A stretch of DNA of 64,000 nucleotides, taken from Halichondria panicea. Its lineage: Eukaryota; Porifera; Demospongiae; Suberitida; Halichondriidae. The notes beneath the pieces were generated by a model. The model worked only from the letters and a program-made list of their open reading frames with translations, was not told where the DNA came from and ran no database searches. How positions within the stretch are numbered: position 1 is the first letter of the stretch; each line of letters opens with the position of its first letter. Both the position numbers and the translations under genes were made by a program. The stretch covers positions 1,135,501 through 1,199,500 of the forward strand of contig NC_087390.1 of assembly GCF_963675165.1 (NCBI RefSeq), read 5' to 3'. Below are positions 341 to 55,778 of this stretch, one piece after another.

Positions 341-609
341 CTTGCACAAATGCACAGTAGAATATAATAATTAAGCAACTGAATTGCTTGGGGAAATGGT
401 CTCTGTGTGTATACATTCGTAGTAGATTTGAAGCATCACAGATCTTGAATTATCAGACCTAAACACTTTATTCGTACTTTATAAGCTCTCTACTGTTAAT
501 ATTATTTGAACAGTCACACATGGAATAGCCACATAAGATAAGCCACATAAGATAAGCCATACAGTAGTTTCAGTAAGGGACCTATAATTATAGTGAAGTC
601 TTTGCTGAC

Positions 610-7152: not shown

Positions 7153-7194
7153 GGTAGTCTCTTTAGTGTGAATAACTGGCTCTTAGTCTAGGAA

Positions 7195-8768: not shown

Positions 8769-10606
8769 TGCATGGTTGGTCCAGAAGACAATTGTTGCCT
8801 CTTCGATGGCCCAGGCAAAGTATCATCATCTGCATGAAAGTATAAAGATGGTACATGTATAATAGGATGGCAATTGCATGCTATAATTATAGTATCTAGT
8901 TTTACGTTCCTGACTATAGACTGTGGTCAATAATCCATTCACATGTCTCTAAGCTGCATGATGTCTACTCCTAGAAATTAATGTTTATATAATGTGGTCG
9001 AGGTTAACCTATTCTCACCTGTAAATTCCTCCTTTATAGCATCAGCGAGGGCATCTTGTCTAACTGCTGGTGCTCTGAGACTCTGACATATTTTAGAATA
9101 GGTGAGATTGGCAGTCTCCAAGCAAACAGTTAGCATTTCACGTAGATAGTCCTTGCTCTTGCGATAGTCTTGTTCTATATTTTTGAGGGTTCCAGAATGT
9201 AATCCCAGGGCAAGTCCTAGTTCCTTCCAGTTACCAGCGACTTTGATCAGTTTCTCATTAACAGACCCCAAATCATCGAGAGTCAGAATGGAGCCTTTTT
9301 ATAGGTACAATGGGATACATGCATGTGGTTTTACTATATGAAATAGCTGATAAATTACTTGTATACGCATATATATAGGAGACATCTGCTTACCAAGCGT
9401 TGGTCTTCCTGACTCGTCTTTTTTGTCCTCTTTTTTTCTCTTAACACCAATTATGGTTGATGGTTTGGACTCTTGAAAATATTTGTATGTAAACGTAGAG
9501 TATAATTATTATAGTTGAAATGCTAACTATAATTTATAGTGTTACTGTAATATAGCAGGTAATTTTCGTTGGTGAAAAATGAACTACCCAATTAAATAGT
9601 TCGTAATCTAAATATATTCATACAGCTCTTGGGGTAGAATAATTTCGCAGTTTTAATTTTCGTATGATGCTCTTCAATACGAAATGTATATACCATCATA
9701 CGAAAATAACCCGCTATATATATACGGTATAATATATGGCATGATTTGTACAGCTATAAAGACGATACAGAATCCACGTAGTAAGATGCTCCATTCTCTC
9801 ATGTGCTTCTGACGATATCAAGAGTTTATTAGGAAGAGTACACACATCCATTTAAAACCGTAGTATGGGGAAAATTCTGTACAGGAAATTCTGTACATTT
9901 AGAACTTAAAATTTATTTAGCTATGTACAGTATAATAACAAGGCCGTAGCGAGCAAGTTTAGAGTGGTCAGGTGGTCAGGCCAAGGTAAATTTTGAAAAA
10001 AACGTTAACACAACGACCATTACCAGGAAACCATCAGGCATTTTCAACAATGTAACGACTATTACCTACTTAGGTCCAAAAAGTGGTAAGACTAAAATCT
10101 GACCAGCCTGACCGCTTGCTATGGCCTTGAATAATTGTGCAATCTACGTTTTTGCATGGGGTTATAGTACTGGATTTGGACCTACGTACATTCTAATACT
10201 CAGATTACCAGGTTTCATATTTTATGTATCAAATCGAGGGTAGGTATAGGTGTATAGAGCAATATAATTATACTTAGTCGCATGTGATTAAGGTTGCATT
10301 GCTAATAGAAAGATTTGTAACACCTGTTAATTAGCACGCATCTATTATAATATCTGTGTAAAAAGTGAACAGTGACACATACATACATGCAGTACCGTCT
10401 ATACTGACATATTAAAGCTATAAACGATGCATGCAACATGCATGCAGTGAAGGGGGTTAATTAATACCTTCCTCAATAGAAGCACGAGTATCCGAGGTAT
10501 TATAATATGGCGTCTGCTGCATGGTCAACGATTGGCTCTCTCTCGTGGTCTCAGCCATATTGTATGGCAGCGGTTGATTAGATATACTAGACGGATATCC
10601 CTGCAT
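8769..10606 (-). pseudogene. DEATH-domain NLR remnant lacking its NACHT exon (NLR-A0)
   Basis: Exons, 5' to 3': 10468-10600/10606 (starts MQGYPSSISN), 9394-9471 (Lys-rich, VKRKKEDKKDE, ending GRPTL), 9019-9294 (DEATH domain, with W and L positions as in the other two DEATH exons), and a linker near 8769-8829. Phases agree up to the linker, which is 61 nt instead of the 66 nt seen in the sister linkers, so the frame is lost there; the NACHT exon that should follow survives only as debris. The 9394-9471 exon ends with the same CCAACGCTTG-GTAAG as the 2A exon of NLR-A2 but has lost the hydrophobic stretch and the 2A motif. It could still encode a small DEATH-only adaptor. Alternatively these exons are the 3' continuation of the NACHT-LRR exon upstream (see findings). 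Confidence 0.55.
9550..9731. mobile_element. Degenerate MITE of the CCGTAT / GGGTAATTTTCG type
   Basis: The left side reads AGCAGGTAATTTTCGTTGG and the right side CGAAAATAACCCGCTATATA, an imperfect inverted pair. It resembles the MITEs at 58.9 and 62.8 kb. It lies in the 1-kb intron between the exons at 9.4 and 10.5 kb, which otherwise shows nothing I recognise. Confidence 0.45.
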
Positions 10607-19800: not shown

Positions 19801-22800
19801 TTAAGTACAAGTTACGTTTCTGACCAGGATTAATAGACTATAATGTCTATCCATAGAATGCGTATAGTGGGAAATACAATACCTTGCACTGTGCTTTCTT
19901 CCCAAAAGCATTTCAAACTCTTCATATTAATAATTATTTCAGAGACATGTGTTTAAGTATTGTGATCTGCTACTGACGTAGCCAAATTTAATTGAGCGTG
20001 GGCAAGAGTAAACCGCAATATCTGTCCTCCAACACACTGTGACACAGTACTTGGAGCGTTTAGGAACTAGAGGCAAAGAGTGTGTGAAGCTACAGAACAG
20101 TATGTAGAAGTTAGCTCTACAAGATGAAGTATGAAAGGCTAGAGTACTACTGTATCTGATAATAGCCCTCGTCAAAAGGACCTGGTCAAAGAAGGAACCT
20201 ATCCCAGATCCTGGACAACTCACAGCAATACTTCTGACATGCCAAAATTGAAAAACCCTACAGATCCCTTCATGTCATCAGAAGGAATGTTTTAGTCCAA
20301 GTCATAATAAAGAAGAAGAAGCTATATAGATCTATATATAGATTGCCCTGGAAAAATCACACTATCCAACTAGAAGGGCAAGGGCAACCAATTTTATCCT
20401 AGGATAATTACAGTAGAACTACAGCAGAACATTCAACTACAGACTACAAGACTCGCCTTATCAAACTCAATGTGCTCCCACTCTCAAGACCTCACGTTCG
20501 ACCAAGTCGAGTGTCTCAAATTACAGCAGACAATGTAGACCTGAGTGCTTATCTGCAGGTATTATTTCCGTATCCACTATAGAGCTGGTTCTACTGCCAG
20601 AAAGTTTCCAAAAGGAGCAAAACCTCTAAAACTACTACAATAGGATTGCACGACTATGGAATTGACTGGACCCTATCGATCTAACATCAATACAATCTAT
20701 TACATGTATTGAACTAAGGGAAAATTCGACATTGGTGCTCGTGCCCCTGTGAAAACTGTCTCATGCACACAAATTAGTATGGTTTAATCTCACTCTGTCA
20801 GTATACTAATGAGATCACAACCTTGCAACATTGTCATGTCATTCTCAAATACTAGCTCAATAATAATACTCAAGCCTCAATTTGAGGCTTGAGGATAGGC
20901 TCAAAGATAGACCTTTAGTCTCAAGCTTCACTATGCTAGGTATTAAAGCCATCGTCTATGATAATATCTCCAGACTTGCATATAAAGTACATTAAGTCTG
21001 CAATGTGTAGGCATCCTGTGGCTTTGTTGCCTGTCAGGTTCCGCCCATCTACTGAAAGCCCACGCTCATTTTCACTGTGCCACCACTGTGCCACCGTCAC
21101 GCAACTTAGCGAGGCAGGCTCTCCTTTTTCTTGGACGGTTTGTTCTTTCTTTCTTTGTTCCTCCAATTCTTACCGTATTTTATCTTATTGACCGTGTGAC
21201 AAAAAACAGAAAAAGGAGCTAGAGGCTGCGAAGGAGGCTAATGTGTTTACTCTATCACCACCCACACAAACATTAAAGTGATTCACTCACTGGTTGGTTC
21301 GGGAGTCGTTGTGCATAATGTTGGCCTCACAGATGACCCAGGTGAAGTATCGTCAACTGAAAGTCAGTAATTGGTCGTTATACAATTGATTGAAGCAAAA
21401 TTAAACATTCCATCTAAGTTACATTCTAGTTATCCATTCACTATAGTTAAGTACCGTTGACTACTCATGCATAGAAATGCTTCTATGTGGTCAAGGTTAG
21501 CCTCATGACTATTCATACCTGTACATGCCTCCTCTATAGCCTCAGCGACATCATTCCGATCAACTGTTGGTGCACTGAGACTTTGACATATTTCAAAATA
21601 GGTGAGAGGGCCAGTCTTCAAGCGAGCAACTATCATTTCACGTAGACAGTCCTTGTTCCTGTGATAGTCATCCTTTATATCATCGAGGGTGCCATGACCT
21701 AATCCCAGAGCGAGTCCCAGATTAAACCAATTTCCAGCAGCTTCTATCAGTTTTTCATAAACAGAATTCAAATCACTGAGCATCAGAATTGAACCTATAT
21801 GCCAGTAAATGGTAAATTCTGTTAATCAATGGTATGTAGACTACATCCATGGCATCCATGTATACACCATAAAACAGCTGACAGCAATAAGTGTTATATA
21901 TACATACACAAGGAGACACCTACTTACCAAGCGTTGGTCCAGGGTTTGCTTCAACATCTCCTGACTGTAACAGTAAGCGGAATATCAGTAACAGTATACA
22001 CAGACTGAGAGTGGGGGGCAACATCAGTCCATTAGTGCTCTGAACTCTCACTTGGAACTTGGTCGGTTTCTCTTGAGTATCAAAAACTAGAAACCAAAAA
22101 GTAAAAAAGTAAGAGTGTTGTGGCAGCTAGCATTTGATTATACCTAATGTAGTGCAATACTGAATGTTCCATTGTTTCCGAGGGTTCCATCTCACCAAGC
22201 AGGCAGTGATGAGTGAGTAGCAGGTGATAAGCACAGCTGACAGAATGAGAACGACCAGTGCACTCCCCCTCCATCCCAGCTCACAAGGAAACACTCCGGT
22301 CCAACTCAAGTCAACCACAGGGCAAGCAGGATGTGGGGGAGCTGTGTAGAGTTGCATAAATATATTCATGTGCTGTGACATCACAATTGTGGTCATGACT
22401 CCGTGAATACCAAGCATGCAATGCACTATTAAGGCCATGCAAAGTCAATTTGTAGTTTCTCAGGCCCTCGCGCTTTGGAAATTGACTGCTTTCCAAATAT
22501 ATCACGTGACCTCAAATTAGAGGCACTAAAAGAAAAGACAATGATAAATTTGTATGGTTTTGTGGTCATGAATATAATTATGACTAAAATTAATTATGCA
22601 CTTCCGCTTATTGAGGAAGTTAGTGATGTGTTTTCAATTAAATTCTATGAATATCATTATCATGCCTCAAATCCGCTTGCTATTTTAGGAATAATAGCCT
22701 GAGAAACTACAAATTGACTTTGCATGGCCTAAATGGCTGTTTAAAACTTATATTGTGGCCTATGCCCGGTAATAATATACTCTGTACCAAAGGTTATGAT

Positions 22801-23079
22801 AAGAAATTATTGGCGAGTATACTTCACTGACTCACAGGAAAAAGTTTGTAAGAAGAGTATGTATCTGATGGTGACCATAATGAGGTAGAGTTGGTAGAGG
22901 ACAGGGGTGATCAACACAGAGGCAAGGCTGGCTCTGAGCTGCCAACTAGGCTTACGGAAAACCAGTGTAACATTATCTTCCAGATCTTCCGGGTAGTCAT
23001 TGCAGATTGGTTGTCTGATTTTTGGAGACCATTTTCCTTCGAAGGATCTTGCTGCTGATGACCTTAAAATCCACTGCAT
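16865..23079 (-). CDS. NLR-A2: transmembrane module - 2A - DEATH - truncated NACHT
   Basis: Seven exons join in frame: 22836-23079 and 22144-22341 (transmembrane module), 21928-22086 (hydrophobic stretch plus 2A motif), 21519-21794 (DEATH), 21291-21356 and 19698-19763 (66-nt Ser/Thr/Pro linkers), and 16865-18318 (NACHT). All junctions are phase 1, for a total of about 820 residues. The NACHT exon keeps Walker A (KGAPGGGKTTLSWELC) and Walker B (VLFILEGLDELP). Compared with NLR-A1 it lacks about 160 residues covering the winged helix and the LTLQEFLAAF signature, with the frame kept, and stops before the LRRs (after LYKLFNYG). Without LRRs it may be a decoy, a regulator or a decaying gene. The phase also allows splicing of linker 2 to the full NACHT-LRR exon at 13858. 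The start at MQWIL was chosen because block B has a stop just upstream of the same Met. Confidence 0.65.
18418..18771. mobile_element. 354-bp MITE, CCGTAYGG ends, TA target duplication
   Basis: The left end CCGTATGGCGAGAAATTTTT pairs with the right end CGAAAATTTCCCACCGTACGG. TA flanks both sides. It lies in the intron between linker 2 and the truncated NACHT exon of NLR-A2. No ORF of note. Confidence 0.7.
19240..19345 (+). pseudogene. Fragment resembling the N-terminal domain of a Crypton/DUF3504-type recombinase
   Basis: The plus-strand frame reads VPKKTQESTKWAVNNFKTWL and continues about 15 residues. The pattern P-K-x-T-x-x-S/A-T-K-W-A-V-x-x-F-x-x-W resembles the N-terminal part of the DUF3504 / Crypton tyrosine-recombinase-like proteins common in sponges and other animals. 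The frame soon breaks and no catalytic part is visible. The assignment comes from the motif alone and is tentative. The rest of 18.8-19.7 kb shows nothing I recognise. Confidence 0.35.
20400..20760 (+). pseudogene. Non-LTR retrotransposon (LINE) reverse-transcriptase 3' remnant
   Basis: The frame reads DYKTRLIKLNVLPLSR and, about 170 bp later in a shifted frame, YYNRIARLWN followed by a stop and LDPIDLTSIQS. These are typical of the C-terminal end of LINE reverse-transcriptase ORFs (Y-x-x-R-L-x-x-L-x-L-L-P-L, then N-R-x-x-R-L-W-N-x-L). Stops and shifts make it dead. The rest of 19.8-21.2 kb has only short shadow ORFs and a perfect palindrome near 20871-20893. Confidence 0.55.
21935..21958 (-). 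other. 2A-type ribosome-skipping motif in NLR-A2
   Basis: The minus strand codes S-G-D-V-E-A-N-P-G-P, which fits the D-x-E-x-N-P-G-P consensus. It is preceded by a strongly hydrophobic run (LSLCILLLIFRLLLQ). In 2A elements the Gly-Pro bond is not formed and the ribosome continues from Pro, giving two products. The motif is identical to the block B copy although the surrounding DNA has diverged. Confidence 0.8.
22433..22729. mobile_element. 297-bp MITE with about 30-bp inverted ends and TAA target duplication
   Basis: The ends GGCCATGCAAAGTCAATTTG and CAAATTGACTTTGCATGGCC are exact reverse complements, and the match runs further inward. TAA flanks both sides (22430-22432, 22730-22732). Three-base TAA/TWA duplications suggest a PIF/Harbinger-type MITE. 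It sits in the first intron of NLR-A2 and is absent from the matching intron in block B. Confidence 0.75.
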
Positions 23080-29526: not shown

Positions 29527-32500
29527 TTATGACACACTAGTACCTGGTGTGTCTAGTTCCAATGTATCGTCAAAGTTTGATAGCTGGTCCATTTCAGACT
29601 TTGATACGAAATCTCCAAAACAGTCCATCAGAGTCTTTTGTGTTGCATCCTACAGAGAAGTGAACATGCACGAGGATGATACATTTAACACAGTTGTAAG
29701 TTAAGCTGATTAAATGAAAGCACCACAGGTGCTGATGCCTCGGTGGAGGTGCCAAAGCTACATAACATAATTAAAGCTACTAAGCTACACACATTGATTA
29801 TAATTATCATGATAAACATTTTTTTCATGCAAAGTCCAGGGAAACTCAAGGAGTGGGTAATGATCGACGATGATTGTTGTTAAAAACGATGGATGCCAAA
29901 AGTTCAAGCCTAAAATTAATGGCTGCAAGTCAGCAGAGCCTTGCAGCTCTCTTCTCTCACTCTTGCAGCTACCAATAGCGTGCAGAACTATAACTGCTAA
30001 GTAGAGTAGCAACACTCGGTAAACAAGTTTGGCTACATGCTCTTCTGAAAAGGCTGCAATGGCATTCCAAGTAGGCATAACTCGAGAACGAAGCATTATT
30101 TTGCAAATCCACGAATTAAAATCTAAGTAAACATGACTAGAAGCCTATAGAAACTCTTACTTGCACTTGATTCATCCTTGAGCAGCTGTAGCAGTCTACA
30201 CAGACACACACACAAACACACTACCGTATACCTCGCTTGCGCATGCGCACCGAGGCATAACTATGGCTTGCACAGATGCACAGTAGAATATAATAATTAA
30301 GCAACTGAATTGCTTGGGGAAATGGTCTCTGTGTGTATACGTTCATAGTAGATTTGAAGCATCACAGATCTTGAATTATCAGACCTAAACACTTTATTCG
30401 TACTTTATAAGCTCTCCACTGTTAATATTATTTAAACGGAACAAACCATATCATCAGTTTCAGACCTATAATATAGTAAGCTATTATAATAATTACAAGT
30501 ACGTGCATGGCTTGCACTGAATGCATGGGAATAAAATAATGTATCTGTGTGTATACATTTGTGTTGATAACAGTGGAAGCATCACAGATCTTATCAGACC
30601 TAAACACTCTTTATAAGCTCTCTACTGTTTAAACGGTCACACATGGAATAGCCACGTAAGATAAGCACCAGTTTCAGTAAGGGACCTCTATAGTAAAGTC
30701 TTTGCTGACCTTGGCTGTGAGTACTGCGCTCTCTGCACTGGAGAAGTCATCTTTAGCCAGACCAGCTTGACTCAACACTGACAGTTTATTCTGAATCAAG
30801 GGCCTGTGCATGTGTGAAGTGATGACATCGTGTTTAATGAATTAAGTGAATGGGGTTCAAAACTACATGTAAACAAAATGCCACAAAAAAATTACTTCAC
30901 ATTACATAGTTACACCTTCATACGCCCTTGGTTACACTTACAGCATAAGACACTTATACATGTACTGTACATACGTTCTAATAAAACATTCAAGCACCTC
31001 TAGCTCTTACCATATAAAGTCATCCACTGTGTCCTTCGCAATGAGGTAATGGACATTGACTGACGACTTTTGGCCTATTCTGTACGCCCTGTCCTCAGCC
31101 TGTACCAGTATCTATAGAGAACAAATCCATAATAACTATGACAAAGCAAAACCGCTGATAAAAAGGGGACCCTCCTACTACGAGATACTGTATCAATATA
31201 ACCTATGTAAGCATTGCAAAAAGGAAAACTTCTCAACAATGTATTTTTCCCGAAGTGTTCTAAGTACATCAAGCTTTTAAGAATGTGTGCATGACTATAC
31301 TTACTCCTGGGTTCCAGAACAGCTCAGCAAAGATGACAGTGGAGGCAGCAGTGAGGGTGAGTCCTGCACGTGAGGAGAGACAGTCAATTGTTAGAATACT
31401 TATACAATCCGCTCGAGTTATTCAATTTCAAACATTTTATGATTTTCAGAAGGCTTTTTAGATGGTATGCTCAATTCTCACATTTGGGCACATTTGGAAC
31501 GGGCCATAATTTTCTTCATGGGCTATGGGCTCTATATAATAATACCTGCATTAGCCGTGGTGATGGAGAGTACAGCCACTTGACACTGCTCGCTGTGCTG
31601 GAACTGATCACACAGGGCCTGTCTCATATCAGCTGGGGTCTTGCCGTCAATACGAATGTAGGTGATGGCCTGTGTGTGGGTGGAGTGGGTGGGTTGTGTG
31701 AGGGGGGTGGGTGGAGGATCAGCAATTGATAGGGATCAACCATTAGTGTGTGTGTGTGTGTTAGTGTCTACATAAGTACGTAATGCTCCTAAAAAATAGT
31801 GTAATAAGTTTAAGTTTTGGATATAATTATAGTACGTAGGATGAAATGCTGAGTCAGCAACTCTTTCTCACAGGTGCCTGTACACACACTAATCCCAACC
31901 TTCTTGTCCAAAGCCTCACAGAGACCATTCAGTACAGACACGTGATGGCCGAACACGATGATCTTCCTACCACCCTCCAACATGTCCAGGATATAGTCCT
32001 TCACTGCCGGCAGCTTCATCTTGCCTGTCACATCAAACAGAGGGAGGAGGGCGGTCCGTCGCTCAAGCTTCTGTGGGTAATGGTGGGTGGGTGGATAAGT
32101 ACACAACAGCAGGTCTGATGAACTTAAGTTCCTATAGACAACTTGGACACCATACAATAACATTGATTGTAACACATACATGTAGCAAAACGCTAAAAAA
32201 AAAAGCAAATTTGGTAAGCTAATCTGTTTAGAAACACTGTTTTTAGAGCCTCATAGCATACACTATATGAAGTGTATGAACTTACTTTGAGTTTGCCAGC
32301 ATCGTTGAGTTGTCTTTTATAGTCTTTCCATTCTTTGCTGCCTCCCTTTGGTAACGAGAGATCCAACAACACCTGTCATATGAATCAATTGTCAATCTAA
32401 TGGTTTCAATTAACCGTGACTAGTTACCATCTTCCTTGTTTTAGAAGGAAGTTGATCGAGAACTTCGGACTTCATCCTCCTAAATAGAAATCATACAGTT

Positions 32501-35500
32501 AGTTAATATACGTTACAAATTAATAACACTACAGTGTGCACAACACTATAGACAGCATCACATGATGCATATATTATAGTAGGATGATGCTATTATTGTG
32601 TAGCTACGTATGTACATGCTTTGATTAACACGGAAGTACGATGTTCTTGCACACCCAGTGACATCACATGATCCCATAGATACCTGATCATGATGGAGTC
32701 TTCTAGGTAGAGCTGCAGTTCTGACATGTTGGAAGCACCACTGAAGTCCCATCCAAACTGATTCTAATGCATAATTAATTATGGGATGGTATAATAATTT
32801 CAATGGTGTTACAGTACTCTGACAGACAAAAACAACAGGAAGAAAATATTATCAGTATTTACGTCAAACAACAGCAGTACACACACACACTGAAAACTAA
32901 CAAGTTTCTAGAGTTCAATATCAAAATGATCCTTCATAAACGTCGAGACTGCATCACATAAAGAGTGTGTTAAGCTCCACAAAAAGTACATCAAATTTTT
33001 ACACTGTTCGAAATAAAGATACGGATCGTCCGGATGGCTTGTTACACATCTGTATAAGTATTCTAGATAATCTCCCGGGACTTCTCCTAGCAATTTTTGG
33101 AAGTGTACTTTTTGCGGATCTTGAAATAGTTTGCAATCGATGCTTGAAAAGTAGTTGAGGCTTTTCTTAGTTACAACACAGTGTATTCCATGATAGAGAT
33201 GTAAGATAGTTGATAGACCATCAACTGAGGAGAGAACGAGATCAGTCACTTGATATTCTTTATGACAATACGATGCTTTGATTGGAATCACAGCACTAGA
33301 AAGGCTGAGTGTAGTACCAGTAGATTCAAAGATTTCCTTGAATGTCTCATCGATGCCATTGGCTCCATCGAACACGGGGACAACCTCATCACATTTGGCC
33401 AATAGATACTGCTTGTAGCTATCGAAACTGTCCCTCCAAAGCTCTGGGTGAGGTAGGAGGTACGAGCTCATTTCAAAGGCTGCCTTTTTATCATCTTTGG
33501 AGGAGTGGTGTAGTAGAGAGTGTGCCACAACTTCTTGAAGATGGGGAGTTAGTTTGTTAGTTTCTTTGGATGTTGATGAAGCCAGAAGCTCTTTAAACAC
33601 AATTTCTACGGTTTCTTTCAGTAGATCTTTGATGAATATTTCCAACATTTCCATCAACTGATTAAAGTGAGGCCAAAGAATTTTTGAAAATACGTCTCTA
33701 GAAAATGTCTTCCGTCTTTCATTAAATAAGAGGACAACCTTTTTTTCAGAAGCATCAAATTCGTTGACAAAATTCACTAGACAAGTGAATTTATTTGAAA
33801 CTTCTTTTGTTGCCATAATTATTACAACTATATAATTATACAGAAGGCCTCGTCTTGAAAATAAAATGTGCAACTGCATGGTGTACTTTCTTATATACTG
33901 ACCTAAAACACAGCAATGTAGTTAGTCAGCTTACTTAGCCAGCTAAGCAAGTGCAAATAAATTCACAGTTTACACGAAACTAATTATGGTATTGCACAAG
34001 CTTCATGCAACTAGTCTAGCAATATTCATGTAAACAGTCGTGCATTCCAAGAATAGAAACATGACTGAGATTCCAACAAAATAACATAGTATATCATGAG
34101 ACCGAGTGTTGTAGTGTGCTGCCTGTACACAATTCTCATGTTATATCACAATGACCCCTTACCAGAGGCTACGCGACCGTGTGATAAGACAAAGAAGGGA
34201 CTGTATGTGGCTTCTATTACACGCTTATCGCTATGAAAACAAGGCAATGAAAACATCAAACACAATGTCAGCCATAATTAGCCCTAGCAGCAGATTCTTC
34301 AACAATGGAGGCCACGATGGTTTTCATTACTCTTGATTCACCTTGACTCCATTGCAGTACCTCAGTCCGAACTGGGTGTGGGACACTAGTCTGAAGTTCT
34401 TGTCCACTGCAGTGATCTGTGTGTACAGCTCGATGGGTCGGGATAGGGCAGGTGTCCCTGACAACAGGACAGCCCTCCGAGCACTCTGGGGGGGGGGCGG
34501 GTGAACATACTGGTGTATAGTAACTAGGTATGTATGTACATGTATGTATGTACAGCGTTTGTGTATGCATGCAATGCACTGTGTTTTCACAGAATGCCTT
34601 AAATATAATATGACTGGATGCTGTTTCAGAGAAAGCTGGCAATTAATATTCAGTAGAGGTAATGAATTTACTTTGAGCCATCAAATCTACGTACTTGGAA
34701 TCCTTTCAAGTAATCATAGCTTCTGGGCAACCCAGCATAACTACCAGACACTATACACTGTCTACTGTGTACCTTGATGACTGGAATGGCTGCTTTGGAG
34801 CGAGCAGTGCGATAGTTCTTGAGAAAGTGAGACTCATCCTACATAACAAAACACACTATCATGATTATAAACTCTAGCCAGAATTAAGCAAATCATTTAG
34901 TTAGTAGAGGTGGCCGCATATATAAATTAATTTTTAAATAAGGCAATTCGCAATTAAATGGCCCTCAGCTATACAATAATATCCAAGGTACATATTGCGA
35001 TTATAGCTGAATATGCAATTTGCTGTTATGTAATAGCACTAGATACCGCAATGATGGCTGAGAATCTGTGCTCTGTGATGTCCTTGCTCATCCTGACCAG
35101 CAAGTCATAGCTAATGATATTCACGAGGCAGAATGAGCCACACCCCTTTGTCGTTAGGATGACATTAATATCAGCGTCCACCAGTGAAGGAATCCATCGT
35201 TTGAATGCCTGCACACGGGGTGGGCATAATATGAATACTATATGCTTACGCTATATATATATACACATCATACGAATGGTCAGTAGAACATCAGCACCAC
35301 AACTCACTTAAAAAATTCATTTCCACATAAAGAGCAGAACACAGACTAGCGCTATTTCAACAACCCTCTATCTAAGCTCCTTTGGACTGACATACATGTA
35401 GCTATATACTAACTCACACAATTCTACTACATGTATAATTATCTTGAAATAATTGCTTAGTAGATAATAGTTTACGCTCAACAGAGAAAGCCTCGCCCAC

Positions 35501-37152
35501 TCACCTCAGCCCAGGTGAGTCTCACTGACGAGGGGCACACTACGAGGAGGGGCCAATCAGAGCGGTAGTAGGACATGACGGCTATGGCCTGAAGTGTCTT
35601 GCCTAGTCCCATATCATCAGCTATCAACACTCGGCCATCACGCTTGATCGAGTATCTGTGAGGGTGGGGTTAGAGGGTAATCAAATGAGTGTGATATTGC
35701 AGCGGTAATAATTGTCAAAACAACCTAACAGGGAAAATTGGATATATTAATAATCAACTGTGTGTGTTTTGTGAATATAGCAAGTTATGATAATAATACA
35801 GGCTATGGCTGCCGCTCTAAAATATTATCAGTACCCAGACATTAACTTACTCCACTCCTTCTTTTTGGAACTCCATCAGAGCAGTGCTCAACTTTGTCTC
35901 GATCCTGCTCCAATCAATAACACTGGAATGGGATTTGGCCTGTATGGAATGGGACTGGGCCTGTAGCTGTGATAGGAACAGGTTTATGACAGGTCTGGGT
36001 ATGAGGTCCAACTCCACATGCTTGCAGCTGCTCTGGATAGCTTTAACTGCAGAGGGGAGGGGCTGTTACAGTGACATGGAATCAACAACATACCCAGTGA
36101 ATTGTAGCCTTCTATTCCAAAGCTCCATAATGACGTTTTGGTATCTATAGAAAGAAATTTTGAAATGAATGATATGAATGGCGTGGCCTGGGAGTGCTTC
36201 CGGTAAAGCAGTCAAATAAATGCTTTCAGAGGCCATTCCACAAAACTTAAAAGCTTCGAAATTTTCGCGCTACACGGTAGATAGCAGGCTGAAGTAATTA
36301 CATAATTATGCGTACTATAAAATCGCTAGTCTAAAACACAATCTTACTGTAAGCTCTTGTAGGCATCTTCTTGAATATCTCAATGAGGTCATGATCGTAC
36401 TGCACCTTGACCTCCAGCCTTGTCTTGGACACCATACAAACCCGTGCCTTCTTCTTGTCTCTCAGCTGGGTACACTTCACAGGGGGAGGGTGGTCAGGCG
36501 GTAGTGATGGTGACGGCTTGCAGCTCATCGCTGCTGCCACTTTAATGGAAGCATCCGGTACCGAGGTGATGGGATGAGGTGCATTCAGAGGTGGCTTAGA
36601 GTAGAACAGAGGAATTCTCGAATTTACTGGAGATGCTTTATTAGGTGACAATTTCGGAGGAGAGTTATGGAACAATGTAGACAAATGAGGAGTGGACGGT
36701 TTGGAATAAAATGGTGGTTGTTGGAGACCAGTTTGAGATGTCATTGATGATGGGAGTTCATTGTGTAATGTTCTTGTTCTTGGTAATGATAGCGTCTTTG
36801 TGCTGCTGGAGCTTCCTTGGTGTGATATTAGAGGATTAGACCATTTTGATTCTTGTACTTGACTTGCTGCACTGGAACTTGAGCTAGCTTCAGCCGAATT
36901 AGGGTGAGATCTAACGTTGTCATAGGAACTCAAACTAGGGAATGTAGACGCCATCTTTGAGGTAGTAGCTGCAGACGTAGTGTAAGCGTGTCTCTTTGCA
37001 GGGGGAGATCCCTGCACACCAGTGTGGGGTGGATCCACTCTCCGCTTGGCTGTTAGTTTGGCTTGAGCTCTTCTTCTGTTTGCCTCCATTCTCTGCAGCT
37101 GCTCAGTAGACATTCCTCCACTGCCACTAGCTGAGGGTCTACCAGGATGCAT
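29527..37152 (-). CDS. SMARCAL1: SMARCAL1-like annealing helicase, copy B (intact, 16 exons, 821 aa)
   Basis: Exons, 5' to 3': 36348-37152, 36094-36144, 35851-36046, 35505-35655, 35047-35208, 34773-34838, 34342-34485, 32684-32763, 32428-32479, 32286-32372, 31900-32070, 31546-31669, 31305-31363, 31011-31111, 30710-30803, 29527-29649. All phases agree and no stop is met. The N-terminus has an RPA32-binding-like segment ([17 protein letters not shown], about residues 16-32). One HARP domain follows (AYSK-type sequence spliced to [16 protein letters not shown]); human SMARCAL1 has two. The SNF2 ATPase has motif I DMGLGKT (365-371), the D-E-S-H box (456-459) and [11 protein letters not shown]; the C-terminal lobe has [16 protein letters not shown] and [11 protein letters not shown] (720-730). 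It rewinds RPA-coated DNA at stalled forks. The exon 11 donor (AAG-GTTGGG) is weak and the last exon is less certain than the rest. Confidence 0.9.
29712..30270 (+). repeat. Dispersed repeat R1, copy c (complete)
   Basis: It begins ATGAAAGCACC-ACA-GGTGCTG, then ATGCCTCGGTGG, and ends GCGCACCGAGGCAT-AACTATGG. The 11-bp ends ATGCCTCGGTG and CACCGAGGCAT are exact inverted repeats. A small hairpin GCACC-ACA-GGTGC lies just outside the left end in all copies. The copy is in the last intron of SMARCAL1-B. No ORF of note. Confidence 0.75.
32908..33816 (-). CDS. Intron-nested intronless gene, unknown 302-aa protein (copy B)
   Basis: It lies inside SMARCAL1-B intron 7, same strand, no intron, starting at MATKEVSNK. 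It differs from the copy at 2799-3707 at about three residues near the N-terminus (Val for Ala, Glu for Lys, Val for Ile) and is otherwise identical by eye. The open frame is preserved in both copies, which argues that the protein is real. It may be transcribed on its own or processed from the host intron. The family is not recognised; no signal peptide, membrane span or P-loop is visible. Confidence 0.72.
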   Translation of the reverse strand: MATKEVSNKFTCLVNFVNEFDASEKKVVLLFNERRKTFSRDVFSKILWPHFNQLMEMLEIFIKDLLKETVEIVFKELLASSTSKETNKLTPHLQEVVAHSLLHHSSKDDKKAAFEMSSYLLPHPELWRDSFDSYKQYLLAKCDEVVPVFDGANGIDETFKEIFESTGTTLSLSSAVIPIKASYCHKEYQVTDLVLSSVDGLSTILHLYHGIHCVVTKKSLNYFSSIDCKLFQDPQKVHFQKLLGEVPGDYLEYLYRCVTSHPDDPYLYFEQCKNLMYFLWSLTHSLCDAVSTFMKDHFDIEL

Positions 37153-37334
37153 GGTGGTCTCTTTAGTCAGAATAGCTGGCTCTTAGTCTGAAACTGTCAT
37201 ACACTTTACATGAGCCCATGCCCACTACCCAGTTTTACACTATAATTATAATTATAATTGGAAATTGGAAATGATCATGAAACATACTAACATAACCTAG
37301 ACACCTAAAGTATAGACACACAATTCATTACACA

Positions 37335-40300: not shown

Positions 40301-42714
40301 GTTGAGCATTTCGATCACAATTATTAACGATCATCAGATTTATAAAATGTTTCACACAGCCAAGAGGACAGCGCTCATCAGCAGGAAGCTGTCTTACATT
40401 GTAAGTGCTAATAAGGTATGTTTTGTATGTTTCAATAGCACACAACTTTGGACTTCTTGATGGCTCAACCAAAGTATTGGAATCTGAGAAGATAGATTGT
40501 ACGCATAACTACACGCATAACTCTACACGCATAATTTACTGTCTTAGCCTATATGTAAATGAATTCATCTACTTCTGGTATATGTCATACAAGTCTATAC
40601 TATATACAGTATAATTATATAGCTCTGTATAGTATCTGGTATAGAAAGTAAATTGTAATGGACAAGAGCTAGCGTTGTAATGCATACTACAGCTGCATGA
40701 TATCATGCACTAAAATTAATGTATATACCGGTACATTCTTTCTTTATAGCCTCCGCGACATCATTCCGATCAACTGTTGATGCTCTGAGACTCTGACATA
40801 TTTCAGAATAGGTGAGAGGGCCAGTCTTCAAGCGAGCAGTTATCATGTCACGTAAACAGGTTTGATTATCTCGATGTTTATCACTGATATTATCGAGGAT
40901 GTGAAAGCCTAATCCCAGATCAAGTCCCAGGTCGAACCAGTTACCAGCAGCTTTTATCAAGTTCTTATAAACAGAATTCAAATCATCGAGAGTCAGAATT
41001 GAGGCTATAAAACAAATGATAAGTGCAATGTCGTACACATGGTTTACACATGTATGTTCTATAAAATAGCTGATGAGCAACTTGTATATTATATACGCAT
41101 ACATAAGGAGACACTGCTTACTAAACGTTGGTCCAGGGTTTGCTTCAACATCTCCTGACTGTAACAGTAAGCGGAATATCAGTAACAGTATACACAGACT
41201 GAGAGTGGGGGGCAACATCAGTCTATTAGTGCTCTGAACTCTCACTTGGAACTTGGTCGGCTTTTCTTGAGTATCTAAAACTAGAAAATAAGAGTGACGT
41301 TTATAATTATTGTGTTAGTCATTTGATTACCTGATGTTGTGCAATACTGAGTGTTCCATTGTTTCCGAGGGTTCCATCTCACCAAGCAGGCAGTGATGAG
41401 TGAGTAGCAGGTGATAAGCACAGCTGACAGAATGAGAGCGGCCAGTGCACTCCCCCTCCATCCCAGCTCACAAGGAAACACTCCGGTCCAAATCAAGTCA
41501 ACCACAGGGCAAGCAGGACGTGGGGGAGCTGCATGTGTAGAGTTGCACAAAATTAAAATTAATTCTGAGCGAATCGAGGCTCTAATCAGGTCACGTTAAG
41601 ACTTTAGACACACGAGAACTAGTGCCTCTGGTTGCTGCAGACTGTAACGGATTTCAAAGTTGAAGGACGTGTTAGTGATTGCACAGAGGCTCACAACTCT
41701 ACTGCTTAGAAGGGATTTGTTCAAGCATTCTGGTCATAATTATGGTTTTTATGTTTTTAAATTGACTATTAATTTTGTGACATTACCTACAATCATTACA
41801 GCTCTGCCGCCACCTCTGACACACCCCAGTATTATTGAATGTCAGACCTGATCAGAGTGATGAATATGCATATCTAGGTTGCAGTCCAGTATATTCACGT
41901 GCTGTGTCATCACAATTGTGGGTCATGAGATTTCGTGAATACCAAGCAATGCAAGCATGCTGTTTAAAACTGACCTAAGTTAAATATGTGGCCTATGCCC
42001 TGTAATATGCTCGGCATATACTAGTTGGGCATAGTACCAACCCTGGACGCTCACGTAGGGTTGGGAATCACTGCCATGTCAGGATTTGTGTCACTGCAGT
42101 TTACACGTAACAGCCCAATCAGATTGCAGCGTTCAAGTGCTGAAGGCGTGGTGAATGAGTGAATGAGCCAGAAAGTCAGTAATTCTGTCTGCCAAATCAA
42201 TAGTAGACAAGCCAGCTTGATCCAGGAACACGCCTAGTCAAGTTAGAGCTAATGGAATGCAAAATTGACTCTTGCAGTGGCATTCAAACTGAGCTCTTTG
42301 CGATTACCATCATATATAACTACACCTAAATACCGGTTGCACGAAAACCCTGACAGGGCAGTGGTTTCCAACCTTACACGAGCGTCCAGGGTTGGGCCAT
42401 GCCCAACTAGGTATATACCAAAGTGTATGATAAGAAATGTTATGCAATTATTGGCGAGTATGCTTCACTGACTCACAGGAAAAAGTTTGTAAGAAGAGTA
42501 TGTATCTGATGGTGACCATAATGAGGTAGAGTTGGTAGAGGACAGGGGTGATCAACACAGAGGCAAGGCAGGCTCTGAGCTGCCAACTAGGCTTACGGAA
42601 AACCAGGGTAACATCATCTTCCAGATCTTCTGGGTCTTCATAGGGTGGTCTGATTTTTGGAGACCATTTTCTTTCAAAGGAGCTTGCTGCTGATGACTTC
42701 AAAATCCACTGCAT
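37335..42714 (-). CDS. NLR-B: transmembrane module - 2A - DEATH - NACHT - LRR (intact, 5 exons, 1337 aa)
   Basis: Exons: 42477-42714, 41331-41528, 41122-41274, 40729-41004, 37335-40483; every junction is phase 1. The first two exons encode a membrane module of about 145 residues with hydrophobic helices (SVLITPVLYQLYLIMVTIRY and ALAALILSAVLITCYSLI). The third exon has a second hydrophobic run and the 2A motif (Gly193/Pro194). A DEATH domain follows (about 198-288; Trp and Leu core, GNWFDLGLDLGLG), then NACHT with Walker A (EGAPGVGKTTLSWELC, about 390) and Walker B (LLFILEGLDEFP), the FIHLTLQEFLAAFHIW signature, and about 450 residues of LRR-like repeats. The start at MQWIL is set by an in-frame TGA five codons upstream. 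If the 2A motif works, the transcript yields a membrane protein and a free DEATH-NACHT-LRR sensor; an internal Met (MLPPTL) could instead give an NLR led by a hydrophobic 2A signal. Confidence 0.8.
41129..41152 (-). other. 2A-type ribosome-skipping motif in NLR-B
   Basis: The codons for D-V-E-A-N-P-G-P, preceded by Ser-Gly and a Leu-rich hydrophobic run, lie at the 3' end of exon 3, two codons before the splice donor. The core fits the D-x-E-x-N-P-G-P consensus exactly. From the literature I recall 2A-like elements at the N-terminus of sea urchin NLRs that also act as signal sequences; whether this sponge arrangement is described I cannot check here. Confidence 0.82.
42022..42409. mobile_element. 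388-bp MITE with about 60-bp inverted ends
   Basis: The left end CTAGTTGGGCATAGTACCAA, followed by CCCTGGACGCTCAC, pairs with the right end, which has GAGCGTCCAGGGTTGG and then GCCATGCCCAACTAG. A GTTGGGAATCACTGCC / GGCAGTGGTTTCCAAC pair lies further in. It is in intron 1 of NLR-B and absent from block A. Flanks are TATA-like; the exact target duplication is unclear. Confidence 0.7.
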
Positions 42715-44419: not shown

Positions 44420-47400
44420 ACCCACACATACACACACACACACAGTACGCAGGATTCAGTACAGTTGAGGAGAGCAACAAGTTCTACAAGGCCAACATAG
44501 CAGCCGGTCAGCAAGGGTTGAGTGTGGCCTTTGACCTTCCCACTCACAGGGGGTACGATTCTGATAACCCCCTCGCTGTGGGGGACGTGGGAATGGCAGG
44601 GGTCGCTGTGGACTCAGTGGAGGATATGAAGGTACCTAGCCTGTGTCTGTATAATGTATGGTCTGACTATAATGGTGTTTTAGAGTACTTAGTGTTGATG
44701 GAATTCTTGCTGCTAACTAAATATTGGTTATAGTTATCAAAGCACAACCTTTTTCACCTTATTTTTAATGCGCTATTCTACCAGCTTGATGAATAATTAG
44801 TCTAGCATTTCTGCTCTTTGCTAATTCCGTGAAAAGGGTTGTACACCTTTTGTAAAAATAATGATCAGTTACATGTCAGTATTAGGCATGTATACATAAT
44901 TTTCTGCAGATACTGTTTGATGGAATACCTCTCAACAAGATGTCTGTGTCCATGACAATGAACGGAGCAGTACTCCCGGTACTAGCCATGTACATAGTGG
45001 CAGCTGAAGAACAAGTGAGGTTTAGTTGACCTATAGTACAATCATCACTTGTTTGACCTTCTGTTTATACGTACTGTTTTTATCTCACCACATAAATTGT
45101 TATGGCATTCATTTGTTTGCAATACGGTATTATAATTATGTGTAAGAATATAATTTCTTCCTTTCTCTCTGATTCCTTTGCCCCTCCCCCTGCCCCGCCC
45201 ACACAGGGAGTCAAGCTGGAGGAGCTTCAGGGGACTATCCAGAACGACATCTTGAAGGAGTTCATGGTCCGCAACACGTACATCTACCCACCAGAGTTCT
45301 CCATGAAGATCATCGGAGATATCTTCACCTTCACATCACAGGTTAGAATGGGTGTGGCTTGCTGTGTTCAGGGTTGATTTGTTAATGTGTGGTGTAAGCA
45401 ATGCCATCTTCTACGTTTATCCTGCTGCATTAATTTTATTGATTGCAAAAAATAACCCATACTTTTCTCGCGAACCAAATATTTTGATAATTATCCTTAT
45501 AGATAGGTATTTCACAGGACCACTGCATAATTATTCGAATTGTGAAATCTTAATTCAAGTTACAATCACTCAAAATTAGTAATCAAAACAGGCCCATTGC
45601 CAGCTATAGGCTATACGTAGTGTGTTTTTATGCTGTACCTTGATTGTCTTCTGTATTAATGCTTCCTCTCTGTGTGCAGCACATGCCTCAGTACAATTCC
45701 ATCTCCATCTCTGGCTACCACATCATGGAGGCTGGTGCTGACCCTGTGCTAGAGTTAGCCTTCACTGTGGCTGATGGGCTAGAGTACTGCAGGACAGGTG
45801 TGTGAGGTGTGAGGGGTGTGGGAGGGGGTGTGGGTCTGAAGTTACTAGCTACTACATTGTGGAGTTAAAAGTTAAATTGGTGAGCATTCCTGTCAACAAT
45901 GTTCTATATTGCGTATGTGGGGGTGTGTAAGAAGAGGAGAATCTATGGTTGGTATAATTATACTGGTTTTAAATTAGCGTCGATCCCAGCCCCCTCACTA
46001 GAGGACCTGGTAACCACCGTTTGTGTGGGTGGACTCAATAGTAAATTTTTTCTTTATAATTAATCAATTAACCTTTAATTTGTCTATGGTCACCCACGTG
46101 GTTGATAACTTTAGACAGAAATCGCCATTACAACTCTAGGCTCATACGAGGAGCACTGATCTTACTGATATGGCATCAAACAAGCATCTAGAAGCAAGTA
46201 GACTTGCCAGAGCCGGTCAGTACTGACAGAAAAACGCCCCCACTCTATCACAGTACAAAACCAGACTTTTCAACACTGGAGAGAGCGTGAGCAAGAGCAG
46301 AAGAGAAGTGGAAACCATTATAGTCACTATAGTCTAGGCCATAAATGTTGTAAGTATCTTATTAAAACGTGCTATGATTTGTGCAATGACATCATTGTAA
46401 AATATATAATAATTAATTTACTAAGATATTTCGACCCCCAATAATCTGGGGGGGGGCAATTGACGCATGCGCAGACAGTGTATACCAGGTGGTCTTTGAG
46501 CGGCCTGGAATCGAGGCTAGTTTTAAATTTACTCATTAATTTTCTGCTAGTCTTGTGGCTCATCACATTTCATTAAGGCATGCATTCCTACTCTCATAAC
46601 ACTATACTAAATATATCTTTTGTGAAGAGGTCAGGGCCTTTATTCATAGTAAATTCATTTGGTTTGCTGTACTCCCGTTTGAGACCTCGTATTTTGAATG
46701 TCTTTCACACTGGTCCCAATAAGGGGGTGTGTCAGTCCGGCTGTTCAAAGTATTGTTAGCAAAGCTTGCAATGTGACTTAGCTAGATAGAGCAAGTTCTC
46801 AGATTAACAAATAAGGAAGATATCATGGACTGACTAAGCACATGGTCACAATGACCTAAATACATAACACAAGAAAGTTCTAGAATGTTCCAGACTAGTC
46901 TAAACATAGATATAACATCATTATCAACTAAGTGTACCCAAGGGCGTATACAGAGTATACGCCCTTGGTGTACCTATACTAACAGTATAGCTGTTGCAGG
47001 ATCACAGTGCTGTACATATATATATTTATATATATCGTGATTATGGCCACAAAATATGATCCTTCCATTGAAGAACAGGGACTACTTTCACCGATCGATT
47101 CGTTCCGTGAAGAAGATCCTGTTCCTGTTTCTGATGATGCTCTTAGGGTAGATACAGATGAGGAAAAAGACTATGATGAAAGAAAATTTTATCGATTTGT
47201 TGATAATTTCCCAGAAGAACTAAAAGGCAAATGCGACCCCTCACAAGTGAAGGCAGCATATAAAAATGCCAAACAGCTCAGAATTCTTGTGACTGGAAAA
47301 ACTGGATCTGGAAAATCTACTCTTATTAATGGGATTCTTGGAGTTGCTGTAGCTAAAGAAGGAGACAGTATCAGCAAGGCCTGCACAACAAAAGTCACAG

Positions 47401-50400
47401 ATTATCATGTCACTAAGTGGAAGGTTGACATGATAATTTGGGATAGCCCTGGTCTACAAGATAGCACCGATAATGAGCAGTATCTGAAACAAATGAAGAA
47501 GAAGTGTCAGGAGAGAGATTTGACGATGTACTGTATCGATGTGCGTCAGACGAGGTTGATCAGTGGGAGTAGCAACCCAGACATTGTTGCAATGAAGAAA
47601 CTGACGCAAAAATTTAGTTCTCAGTTTTGGAACAACACCGTGATTGTTCTGACATTTTTCAATTACATTGCTAAAGAGGAAAAGATTATAGATCTTCCAC
47701 CTGCAGATAAGAAAACAGCAGTCGAGGCTAAACTGCAGGAGTGGAAAAATCAGATCGTGCACATTTTAACTCATGATGTAGAGATTGACCAAGAAGCTGC
47801 TGAGAAGGTACTCATTGTTCCGGCTGGTTACTACCGTAAGCCACATCTTCTAGTCTGTGACTATTGGCTATCGAACCTCTGGTTTCATTGCTTTGCTGCT
47901 ATTTCTACTCAGGAAGGCCGGTTAGCATTACTCAAAGCGAATTTCTATCGCATGAAAAAGGACACCAGAGTACAAAAAGAGGATTTTGAAAAAAATATAG
48001 AGGATCAGCCGATTGTGAAGATAAGTAGTTGGTGGCAAAAGTTGGTGCAATTACTTTTGGATATTTTTATTTATATAATTTTGTGATTTCCAAGAATACT
48101 TGTGTAGTACGCAACATGTTAAGATTTGCCTTTTGTTGTATACATGCACATTCTTTGCACCATGGACATTTTGTTGTTGTTGTTTTTTTTACCATGAAAA
48201 CATTTTTTGCCTGCATAAATAATATCAGGTAATGTACTCCTAATAATATCAATGTACAATCTGCTGCCTTTATGGCTATATAAGAAGTAGTATACCCTAA
48301 AGAATATACTCCACTCCTTGCCTCCATATATAGGTGTGAGTGCTGGCATAGACATTGACTCATTTGCGCCTCGTCTCTCATTCTTCTGGGGCATTGGTAT
48401 GACCTTCTACACTGAGATAGCCAAGATGAGGGCAGCCAGGAGACTCTGGGCTCACCTCATGAAGGAGAAGATGGGAGCAAAGAACCCAAAGTCTATGATC
48501 CTGCGATGTCACAGTCAGACCTCTGGATGGTCTCTCACTGCTCAGGTATAGGTGTGCATGAGTGTTTTTATTTGTAGACAGATGAATATACTTTTAGCGA
48601 GAAATTGTGTGTTAATTTGTGCCAGCTTCAGTTTAACTGTATGTAGGAAGAAGTATACCACTGTTCCCAGCCCATATTATTGTAGCTATATTAAATGCAT
48701 TGCCATTTGAGCTCTAATCTCTTACAGGACCCCTACAACAATATAATGCGTACGTGTATTGAAGCAATGGCAGCTGTGTTTGGAGGCACTCAGTCGCTAC
48801 ACACTAACTCGTTTGACGAGGCCCTCGCTCTGCCCACTCCCTTCTCAGCTCGTATTGCCAGGAACACCCAGATCATACTTCAGGAGGAGACGGGGATCAC
48901 CAAGGTTAGTGGTCGGTTAGTAGGTTTTGTCTTACTGACTATATGCATGTAAAGCCAGCTAGGCGAGGCTAGCTAGGATTGGCACTATTTTTGTAGAAGT
49001 TTACATTGGGAGTCATGTTCAGAAAGCATATATTCAATAATTAGAACTTTACCCCCCCCCCTTCCTTCTAGATAGGTGATCCTTGGGGAGGGTCTTATCT
49101 GATGGAGGCCCTCACTGATCAGGTGTACGAGTCAGCACTCAAGATCATCAATGAGGCACGTACAAGGGACACCGGCCTTACAGTTGTATATTCGCTCTAA
49201 TGAAAAGTGCTGTCTCTAACTTTCAAGTTTAATCATTCAAATTTCAACTCTGTAACTTGTCACACTGCATTAGTAATTGTTTCCCTTCTATATAGATTGA
49301 GGACATGGGTGGTATGGCTAAAGCTGTTGCCTCAGGCATGCCCAAGCTGAGGATAGAAGAGTCAGCTGCTAGGAGACAGGCTCGGATTGACTCGAAAACG
49401 GGTGAGTGAGTGCATGGTCCTGGTTAAGGTTCGTGATGATTGAATCAGTATAGTCTTGAAAGCTATAAGCATATTGTGTAGGCCTATAGGCTGATTATGT
49501 TGGTACAGTGACTTTATACATGTACCTGATGCATGTAGTAGCTAGGGTAATGTACGCTTATATCGTTTGTGTACTCAACAATGTTTTTATTAAAAGTACG
49601 CTCCAATTGTTAGATATTACTTCCTGCCACAGACACGATAGTTGGTGTGAACAAGTACACTCTGGACAAGGAGGAGCCATTGGAGGTGCTCTCCATCGAC
49701 AACGCTAAGACCATTGAATCACAGGTGAGAGGAATAGTTGCCAGGGATACCTGTCTGTAGTGATATAGTTGCCAGGGATACCTGTCTATTAGCTATCCTC
49801 CTTACTAATTGGGCAGACCAACAGTGGCTGCAATAAAGAGGTCGCCCTGCAACGTATACAAGTATGGATGTATTACATATCTAAGATGAGGTGAGCACAG
49901 TAGACAGGTTCACCCTCCTTTAAGAAATTGTTAGGCACCGAAATCGGTTACTAATAAAAATTATGTCTCATATTATTCATGACGGAATGTGACAAACAAG
50001 TAAAGTATATTCACGTGCATACCTACACACGCACATGTACACCATCTGTTGCAATATGAATAGAGCAATAATTATAGGCCATAGTTTGGTCCCCACGCCC
50101 ACTTCCTCTCCTTCTTGGTAGAGGCCTGTGGAGGGGAGGAGCTTATAACTATTGTCTAATCAGACCCACCACCATTGCAGAAACGTAAACTGGAGACCCT
50201 CCGCTCCACCAGAGACCAATCAGCTGTCAGCTCTGCCCTAACCGCCCTCACTCAAGCTGCTGAGAGTGGGGACGGCAATCTCCTTCACTTGTCCATTCAG
50301 GCATCACGTGCTCGCTGTACCGTGGGGGAGATATCAGATGCTCTGGAGAAGGTTCATGGTCGCCATGTTGCTGTGCCGAGGATGGTCAGTGGAGCGTACG

Positions 50401-54949: not shown

Positions 54950-55435
54950 CTATCTAGCATTCAATTGTTTTCTCATCCACTCTGAGTCCTCGTAATATTT
55001 GTTATCACCTAGCCTCAGGGCGGCTCGTTTGTAGAAGTAGTAGAATATCACCGCTATAAGCTTCTGAAGTACGTACACAGCTTGAAGACCCTCAGTCCAA
55101 TGGTACATGATGGGCTGCTCCCACCTTACGGCTAAATTCCATATTTGGTATGCAACCGTTAGCGACAGGTACAGTAGTCCAATGAGTAGAGACGCAGAGA
55201 ATTTCTTGATGAGACTTGAAATTAGTCCAGCCTTGAATGCGAACGTGCTAAAGAAGGCAACAAATAGGAGAATGATGGAGAAGACGAGGGCAATATCTTG
55301 TACCATGTAGAGGACTAACAGAACGATTGTGTTCTGTCCCAGTAGGATTGAGAATGAGTTACAGACCAGGTCCACCAGTAGAAGCAGTAGTTGAAGCGTG
55401 AGGATGATCGTATAGCCAGAATTAAGTAACACCAT
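54950..55435 (-). CDS. TMEM138: Transmembrane protein 138
   Basis: Intronless ORF of 161 residues; the family is about 162. It has four hydrophobic segments (roughly 8-28, 37-62, 77-97, 115-140) and the family's conserved end: YFYKRAALRLGDNKYYEDSE and WMRKQL. The pattern L-x-L-Q-L-L-L-L-x-x-D-L-x-x-N-S-F near the start also matches. TMEM138 works at the ciliary base and transition zone in animals, so a flagellated cell type such as a sponge choanocyte is a sensible site. It is head to head with NDUFS1, 343 bp apart. An intronless form next to multi-exon genes may reflect intron loss or an old retrocopy. Confidence 0.93.
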   Translation of the reverse strand: MVLLNSGYTIILTLQLLLLLVDLVCNSFSILLGQNTIVLLVLYMVQDIALVFSIILLFVAFFSTFAFKAGLISSLIKKFSASLLIGLLYLSLTVAYQIWNLAVRWEQPIMYHWTEGLQAVYVLQKLIAVIFYYFYKRAALRLGDNKYYEDSEWMRKQLNAR

Positions 55436-55778
55436 CTCTCAGCTCATGTTTTGTAGTAGGAGGTACAGTTGTTATGGATACAAGAAAAGTTCTATTTCAG
55501 GAGCACCTCTGTTCATCTGTTCTTTGGATTTGCTGTTCCACAACGTCCACAGAAGTCTTTACAGCAGCATAGGGCACTGTCTGAGATTGCACACACCATT
55601 GACCAAACAAATGAAGCTAGACTTGGATAATATCCCACCTCCAAAACCTGCATCTGCAGCAATGGTCAGCCCCTCCCCCTTTTCTGCACACGTGAATTTA
55701 GCTAGAAACACATGACACAGTGAGATCCACAAGATCAGAAGAAGAGTTTCTGATCTTCTCTTGTCTCTCTTCCTAAGG
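55436..55778. promoter_or_regulatory. Divergent promoter region between TMEM138 and NDUFS1
   Basis: The two start codons are 343 bp apart on opposite strands. The segment GCCCCTCCCCCTTTTCTGCA lies near 55670-55688, similar to motifs in the NLR/MUT divergent regions. Also present is an inverted pair AAGATCAGAAGA / TCTGATCTTCTC near 55730-55760. The promoter role is inferred. Confidence 0.4.

Follow-up and report, generated by a model that had tools for sequence, protein, structure and literature searches.

Does the NACHT-type receptor gene at this locus of the sponge Halichondria panicea stand on its own, or does a StopGo/2A ribosome-skipping signal tie it, within one reading frame, to a membrane protein encoded upstream? 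Here, we analyzed a window of 64,000 nt (G000:C14:1135501-1199500, NC_087390.1) of the 131-Mb genome, and "the window" refers throughout to this whole stretch. Five minus-strand exons between 42714 and 37335 join into a 1,339-codon frame with all junctions in phase 1 and no internal stop, and we refer to this gene as NLR-B (Table 1). Its predicted product opens with a membrane module of 195 residues, the last of which are LLLQSGDVEANPG, with Pro as the next residue; a death domain, a NACHT domain, and an LRR-like tail come after it in this order. The splice sites are complete, including the phase 1 donors of exon 1 (gtgagt) and exon 3 (gtaagc). A preliminary description of the locus had placed the module, DEATH, and NACHT-LRR exons in one phase 1 frame, with the exact 2A core SGDVEANPGP closing exon 3, and both claims were borne out by the five-exon join. 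Hydropathy likewise agreed with its description of the upstream exons as a membrane module, with spans at about residues 49–80 and 111–129 and a third run (166–184) that belongs to the 2A region; the membrane protein, put there at roughly 193 residues, measures 195 residues through NPG. At the level of sequence, the observation of a 2A-joined membrane module and NLR in one frame is thus confirmed, and the interpretation first given to it (a joined gene, an exact 2A core, and an upstream part of membrane character) is supported.

The NACHT domain of NLR-B was recovered by Pfam above the cut-off (PF05729, E 7.7e-20). Pfam made no call in the death-domain exon, which supplies the N-terminal death domain by which NLR-B is placed among the NLRs, and the C-terminal tail displayed LxxLxL-like spacing only, with no Pfam LRR at E≤1. 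Among the 120 of 681 matches listed, there was no NCBI model of NLR-B itself; as proteins encoded by the window appear there without a name, this is evidence neither for nor against the gene. An Rfam scan of the 64-kb window returned no hits.

Table 1. Exons and landmarks of the two NLR genes of the window (window coordinates)
Gene	Feature	Position	Strand
NLR-B	Exon 1, membrane module: start codon, acidic N-terminus, first hydrophobic stretch (residues 49–80)	42477..42714	-
NLR-B	Exon 2, membrane module: signature PVVDL.WTG.F..LGWRGSAL and second hydrophobic stretch (residues 111–129)	41331..41528	-
NLR-B	Exon 3: basic linker, third hydrophobic run (residues 166–184), 2A	41122..41280	-
NLR-B	2A core DVEANPG/P after LLLQSG; predicted break Gly195/Pro196	41129..41152	-
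NLR-B	Death-domain exon, first domain of the predicted released product	40729..41004	-
NLR-B	NACHT and C-terminal LRR-like exon, including stop codon	37335..40483	-
LOC135347305	Module exon 1	22837..23079	-
LOC135347305	Module exon 2	22148..22339	-
LOC135347305	2A exon, SGDVEANPGP	21929..22081	-
LOC135347305	Death-domain exon	21520..21792	-
LOC135347305	Frame with NACHT-LRR exon, joined to the 2A module in P0003	10707..13952	-
LOC135347305	C-terminal death-domain exon (NCBI model)	9020..9292	-

The second NLR of the window corresponds to LOC135347305 (protein P0003), whose exons span 23079 to 8768. Between its 2A exon and its main NACHT exon lies a truncated NACHT-LRR copy (16865-18328, minus strand), which P0003 skips. 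The surroundings contain a 4.2-kb segmental duplication that is 96% identical (541-4763 and 30650-34869) and further duplicated blocks near both NLR genes, e.g. 5383-7189 and 35399-37189. A minus-strand frame at 36331-37182 gave a weak HARP match just below the cut-off (2.1e-5), and a similar frame is found at 6622-7182. Beside the NLR cluster are two plus-strand AIG1/GIMAP-type GTPase frames (46983-48086, E 7e-12, and 52674-53894, E 5.5e-13), and a TMEM138 homologue (54950-55438, minus strand, E 1.3e-41) adjoins the immune cluster.

The 2A core is far more frequent than chance would allow. Given the base composition of the window, the expected number of 23-base degenerate cores is 5e-5 for the window and 0.11 for the genome, against two and 116 found, respectively, and the reversed pattern gave none genome-wide; a chance origin of the motif was rejected on these genomic counts. 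All 30 fetched 2A exons retain NPGP, with the core reading DVEANPGP in 23, DIEANPGP in four, NVEANPGP in two, and DVEVNPGP in one. L014 and L024 are the two in which N replaces D as the first residue of the core (SGNVEANPGP), and this variant is termed probably functional in the accessible text of PMC12846837. The same text identifies D12, E14, and N16 as 2A residues that make rRNA contacts or whose replacement abolishes activity, and it ties an L-rich hexapeptide ending in (A/S/C)G to D at position 12. NLR-B possesses D12, E14, N16, and PGP, and its LLLQSG before D12, compared by eye, fits the L-rich motifs; among the upstream hexapeptides, LLLQSG, LLLLAG, and LLLQCG fall into this class, and the LLLQRG of a diverged chromosome-2 copy (L051) nearly does. 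Cores reading DVELNPGP or DIELNPGP are, among the places listed, dispersed on C1, C2, C3, C4, C6, C11, C12, and C13, and these could be retrotransposon copies.

Exon matches counted genome-wide at E≤10, weak ones included, revealed 74 stretches related to the 2A exon and 48 related to each of exons 1 and 2. At 45 of the 74 2A-exon matches, exons 1 and 2 lie upstream in order, and these complete cassettes are distributed over chromosomes C14 (37), C2 (6), C7 (1), and C16 (1); a further three matches have a partial set (two of them at one place on C6), and 26 have neither module exon. Conversely, a 2A exon follows 47/48 exon-2 and 45/48 exon-1 matches, with all exceptions at E≥0.005. Stop codons occur in none of the 74 exon-3 matches, in 2/48 exon-1 matches, and in one weak exon-2 match; one C14 paralogue has its stop within exon 1. 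At one place (L035), three 2A exons lie inside about 4.4 kb. Judged by this genomic arrangement, the upstream module exons belong to the same gene family as the 2A exon. A profile search for the module, in which the 7,997 best word-sharing candidates were scored, identified 38 proteins, with H. panicea as the only named species; P0147 and P0148, which have a diverged exon 2, may come from another sponge.

The joined arrangement of module, 2A, and death domain also appears in the NCBI models of nine other genes (LOC135347306, 305, 256, 310, 242, 244, 394, 261, and 321), and we take the naming of several isoforms of one gene to mean that RNA-seq support probably lies behind the models. What follows the first death domain differs among them. 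NACHT-LRR follows in P0003 and P0007–P0009, and P0001, P0002, P0004, and P0006 continue into a Roc-like GTPase (below the Pfam cut-off in P0001 and P0006, the two scanned), in some cases accompanied by additional death domains. In P0005 the death domain is followed by a ZU5-like protein, and P0127 and P0128 are short and contain a second death domain, that of P0128 being just below the Pfam cut-off. The labels Roc, Dynamin_N, and Death derive from Pfam; EHD, ZU5, and CARD are our own reading by eye. The three isoforms P0002, P0004, and P0007 retain the small intron 2 in frame.

Pfam placed no domain above the cut-off on the module, and an AlphaFold model of P0128 including it was too poor for use (pLDDT 38.7). 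The module of L051 is about half identical (48–50%) to that of the main family; over the aligned parts, exon 1 displayed a pN of 0.24 at saturated synonymous sites (infinite dS), and exon 2 a pN of 0.21, a dS of 1.42, and a dN/dS of 0.17. Measured in this way against the half-identical chromosome-2 relative, the module evolves under purifying selection. Compared with the C7 copy, its dN/dS was 0.49 and 0.40; against the C14 outlier L014, it was 0.79 for exon 2, with 1.42 for exon 3, at small dS (0.11 and 0.04). Pooled over the fetched main-family copies without L051, the module gave 0.70 and 0.63 and the death domain 0.65, suggesting mild recent constraint on the module, similar to that on the death domain.

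The three-exon module is one of several upstream parts joined by a 2A. In L051, where all junctions are again in phase 1, the module and the 2A RGDVESNPGP lead into a 91-residue exon, CARD-like by eye (no Pfam hit and no CARD in a PDB profile search), and then into a C-terminal membrane segment. Chromosome 2 also encodes a short 2A of the signal type that has an ATG of its own, MSPLNVSLLVLAFCLLLQCGDVKPNPGPT. On chromosome 5, a single exon (L052) encodes an unrelated membrane peptide with the 2A AGDVESNPGP, followed in phase 1 by the start of an exon that appears death-domain-like by eye over the 651 bases read; L052 sits in a group of at least 12 2A cores on C5. Seven main-family 2A exons are without the module. 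Five of these (L007, L010, L013, L015, and L025) have an EHD-GTPase-like piece that continues in frame into the 2A exon, an arrangement represented by the NCBI model P0010, and in L018 and L022 no partner piece was found upstream of the 2A exon. L045 has an EHD piece downstream of its 2A exon.

The frame, the exact 2A, and the cassette with its copy number and selection can be read from the DNA itself. We consider it probable that NLR-B is one spliced gene with active 2A skipping, and we infer that skipping occurs, how efficient it is, the topology, and what the module does, as follows. One message would encode a two-part polyprotein, namely the three-exon membrane module (two membrane spans and a third hydrophobic run) with its StopGo/2A end and then the death-domain NACHT receptor. 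In most rounds of translation, the 195-residue membrane protein would come off at Gly195 and a free cytosolic receptor beginning at Pro196 would follow; ribosomes that do not skip would produce a fused receptor, drawn into the secretory pathway by the module; with partial skipping, as in the sea urchin, this fused membrane form would also be made. By the positive-inside rule, the basic residues before the third run would leave the receptor of an unskipped chain on the non-cytosolic side, again as in the sea urchin. Within the one-gene, active-skipping reading, we tentatively propose a dual-targeting role of the 2A, which would set the receptor's division between cytosol and membrane and supply the membrane protein in step. 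Many death-fold proteins have received a copy of the phase 1 cassette. It is conceivable, although we stop short of calling it likely, that a more general 2A polyprotein system serves death-fold immunity, in which several unrelated membrane N-termini (the three-exon module, the chromosome-5 membrane peptide, the short signal, and the EHD-GTPase piece) are joined by 2A to signaling proteins. Skipping would then set, gene by gene, a cytosolic versus a membrane-fixed receptor or adaptor together with a matched membrane partner.

If the 2A were instead a poor or dead skipper, the products would mainly be membrane-anchored NLRs, as published for other sponges, whose transmembrane segments are read as putative membrane-bound NLRs in the accessible part of PMC12909245. 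The pattern of conservation makes this unlikely. Between the main family and L051 (one chromosome-2 copy), 12/14 residues of the 2A 14-mer are kept, versus 4/17 in the hydrophobic run before it and 3/19 in the linker, so that the conserved item in this exon is the 2A itself. Within the main family (30 copies), the 14-mer gave a pN of 0.016 against a pS of 0.078; in the hydrophobic run, pN exceeded pS (0.034 and 0.012), and the linker gave 0.047 and 0.132. The window copy, moreover, retains all the critical 2A residues named above. Translation might otherwise begin at the exon-3 Met, with the 2A exon first, as a signal-type arrangement for which the own-ATG 2A on chromosome 2 offers a precedent; a Met is indeed present in 25/30 fetched 2A exons, including that of NLR-B. 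The other five (L026–L030) have no Met anywhere in this exon, nor do 7/11 NCBI proteins with the module, and in such copies translation must start upstream; for the Met-less members, a start at the exon-3 Met was rejected. An AG acceptor precedes the 2A exon in 27/30 copies (shifted by a short deletion in L017, L018, L020, and L021, and absent in L009, L019, and L023, with P0006, the NCBI model matching L019, using a later AG), and a GT donor follows it in all 30. The Met-less copies and the splice acceptors together indicate that at least part of the family is read through from the module. With module exons tied to 2A exons genome-wide and paralogue NCBI models joining the two, we regard the exon-3 start as very unlikely.

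A narrower question, lying within the probable reading of one spliced gene with active skipping, is whether the module is made alongside the receptor as a membrane protein in its own right (partner, decoy, or regulator) rather than as a targeting device, with skipping so nearly complete that a fused form has no importance. Between families, the module retains half identity at the protein level, and it exceeds the length needed for a signal sequence; for the tested 2A classes, the accessible text of PMC12846837 gives in vitro separation of about 93% up to almost 100%. We nevertheless find this role somewhat unlikely, as the chromosome-5 peptide, the chromosome-2 signal, and the EHD piece are alike in membrane association but not in sequence, which speaks for targeting. 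The exons could also be remnants in a duplicated array, with no product from this gene, and the truncated NLR within the window and the paralogue with an exon-1 stop are what such decay would leave; the intact splice sites and frame of NLR-B make it highly improbable here.

If the proposed skipping is real, sponge receptors read as membrane-bound may be mostly cytosolic and accompanied by a separate membrane partner, and the localization of sponge immune proteins would need rereading. The 116 exact cores in one animal genome also contrast with the description of cellular StopGo/2A use as rare in the accessible text of PMC12846837. With one and the same 2A in front of many different receptors, the family offers a clean test of why animals would use ribosome skipping. 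The literature matches listed, in which subscription journals are mostly outside coverage, did not include any description of a sponge NLR with a 2A; a 2A-like text match in PMC5890393 proved, in the text available, to be the name of an SH3/PX protein. A spliced multi-span module before a 2A was not found there either (the preliminary description, too, knew of no account of the upstream membrane partner), and the same literature gave no report of its amplification, its reuse across receptor classes, or its presence in a sponge. What is already known is the signal-type N-terminal 2A on sea urchin NLRs, which that description had correctly named (PMC4981915, accessible text).

Among the closest known counterparts is this sea urchin SpNLR2A, which shares with the sponge genes an L-rich SGDVExNPGP 2A directly before a death-domain/NACHT receptor (PMC4981915, accessible text). 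According to the same text, the sea urchin 2A is a 26-residue N-terminal sequence that is itself the signal, and it skips in about 80% of cases in vitro (a qualitative estimate), with the remainder exocytic, so that partial skipping yields cytosolic and exocytic forms. In SpNLR2A, the 2A stands at the very N-terminus, whereas the predicted NLR-B frame places the three-exon module ahead of it (195 residues through NPG) and, unlike in SpNLR2A, the 2A exon of some sponge paralogues lacks a Met. The sponge 2A also resembles the viral L-rich StopGo/2A class, with a D(V/I)ExNPGP core and an L-rich stretch ending in (A/S/C)G (PMC12846837, accessible text), but it resides in a spliced animal gene family rather than in a viral polyprotein. 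Animal non-LTR retrotransposons, mentioned in the accessible text of PMC4981915, likewise carry a cellular 2A sequence, and such an element could be the source of the sponge 2A exon, although the next domain in the sponge gene is a death domain and not a retrotransposon protein. Among sponges, the NLRs of Dysidea avara resemble those of H. panicea in their death-domain–NACHT–LRR order, large expansions, and occasional membrane segments, and the same likeness extends to the Amphimedon queenslandica NLRs cited in that work, which ranks H. panicea first in NLR expansion relative to assembly span (PMC12909245, accessible text). The D. avara and A. queenslandica receptors are read there as membrane-bound, whereas in H. 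panicea a 2A lies between the membrane part and the receptor, and our finding may provide an alternative reading of the NLR membrane segments in those species.
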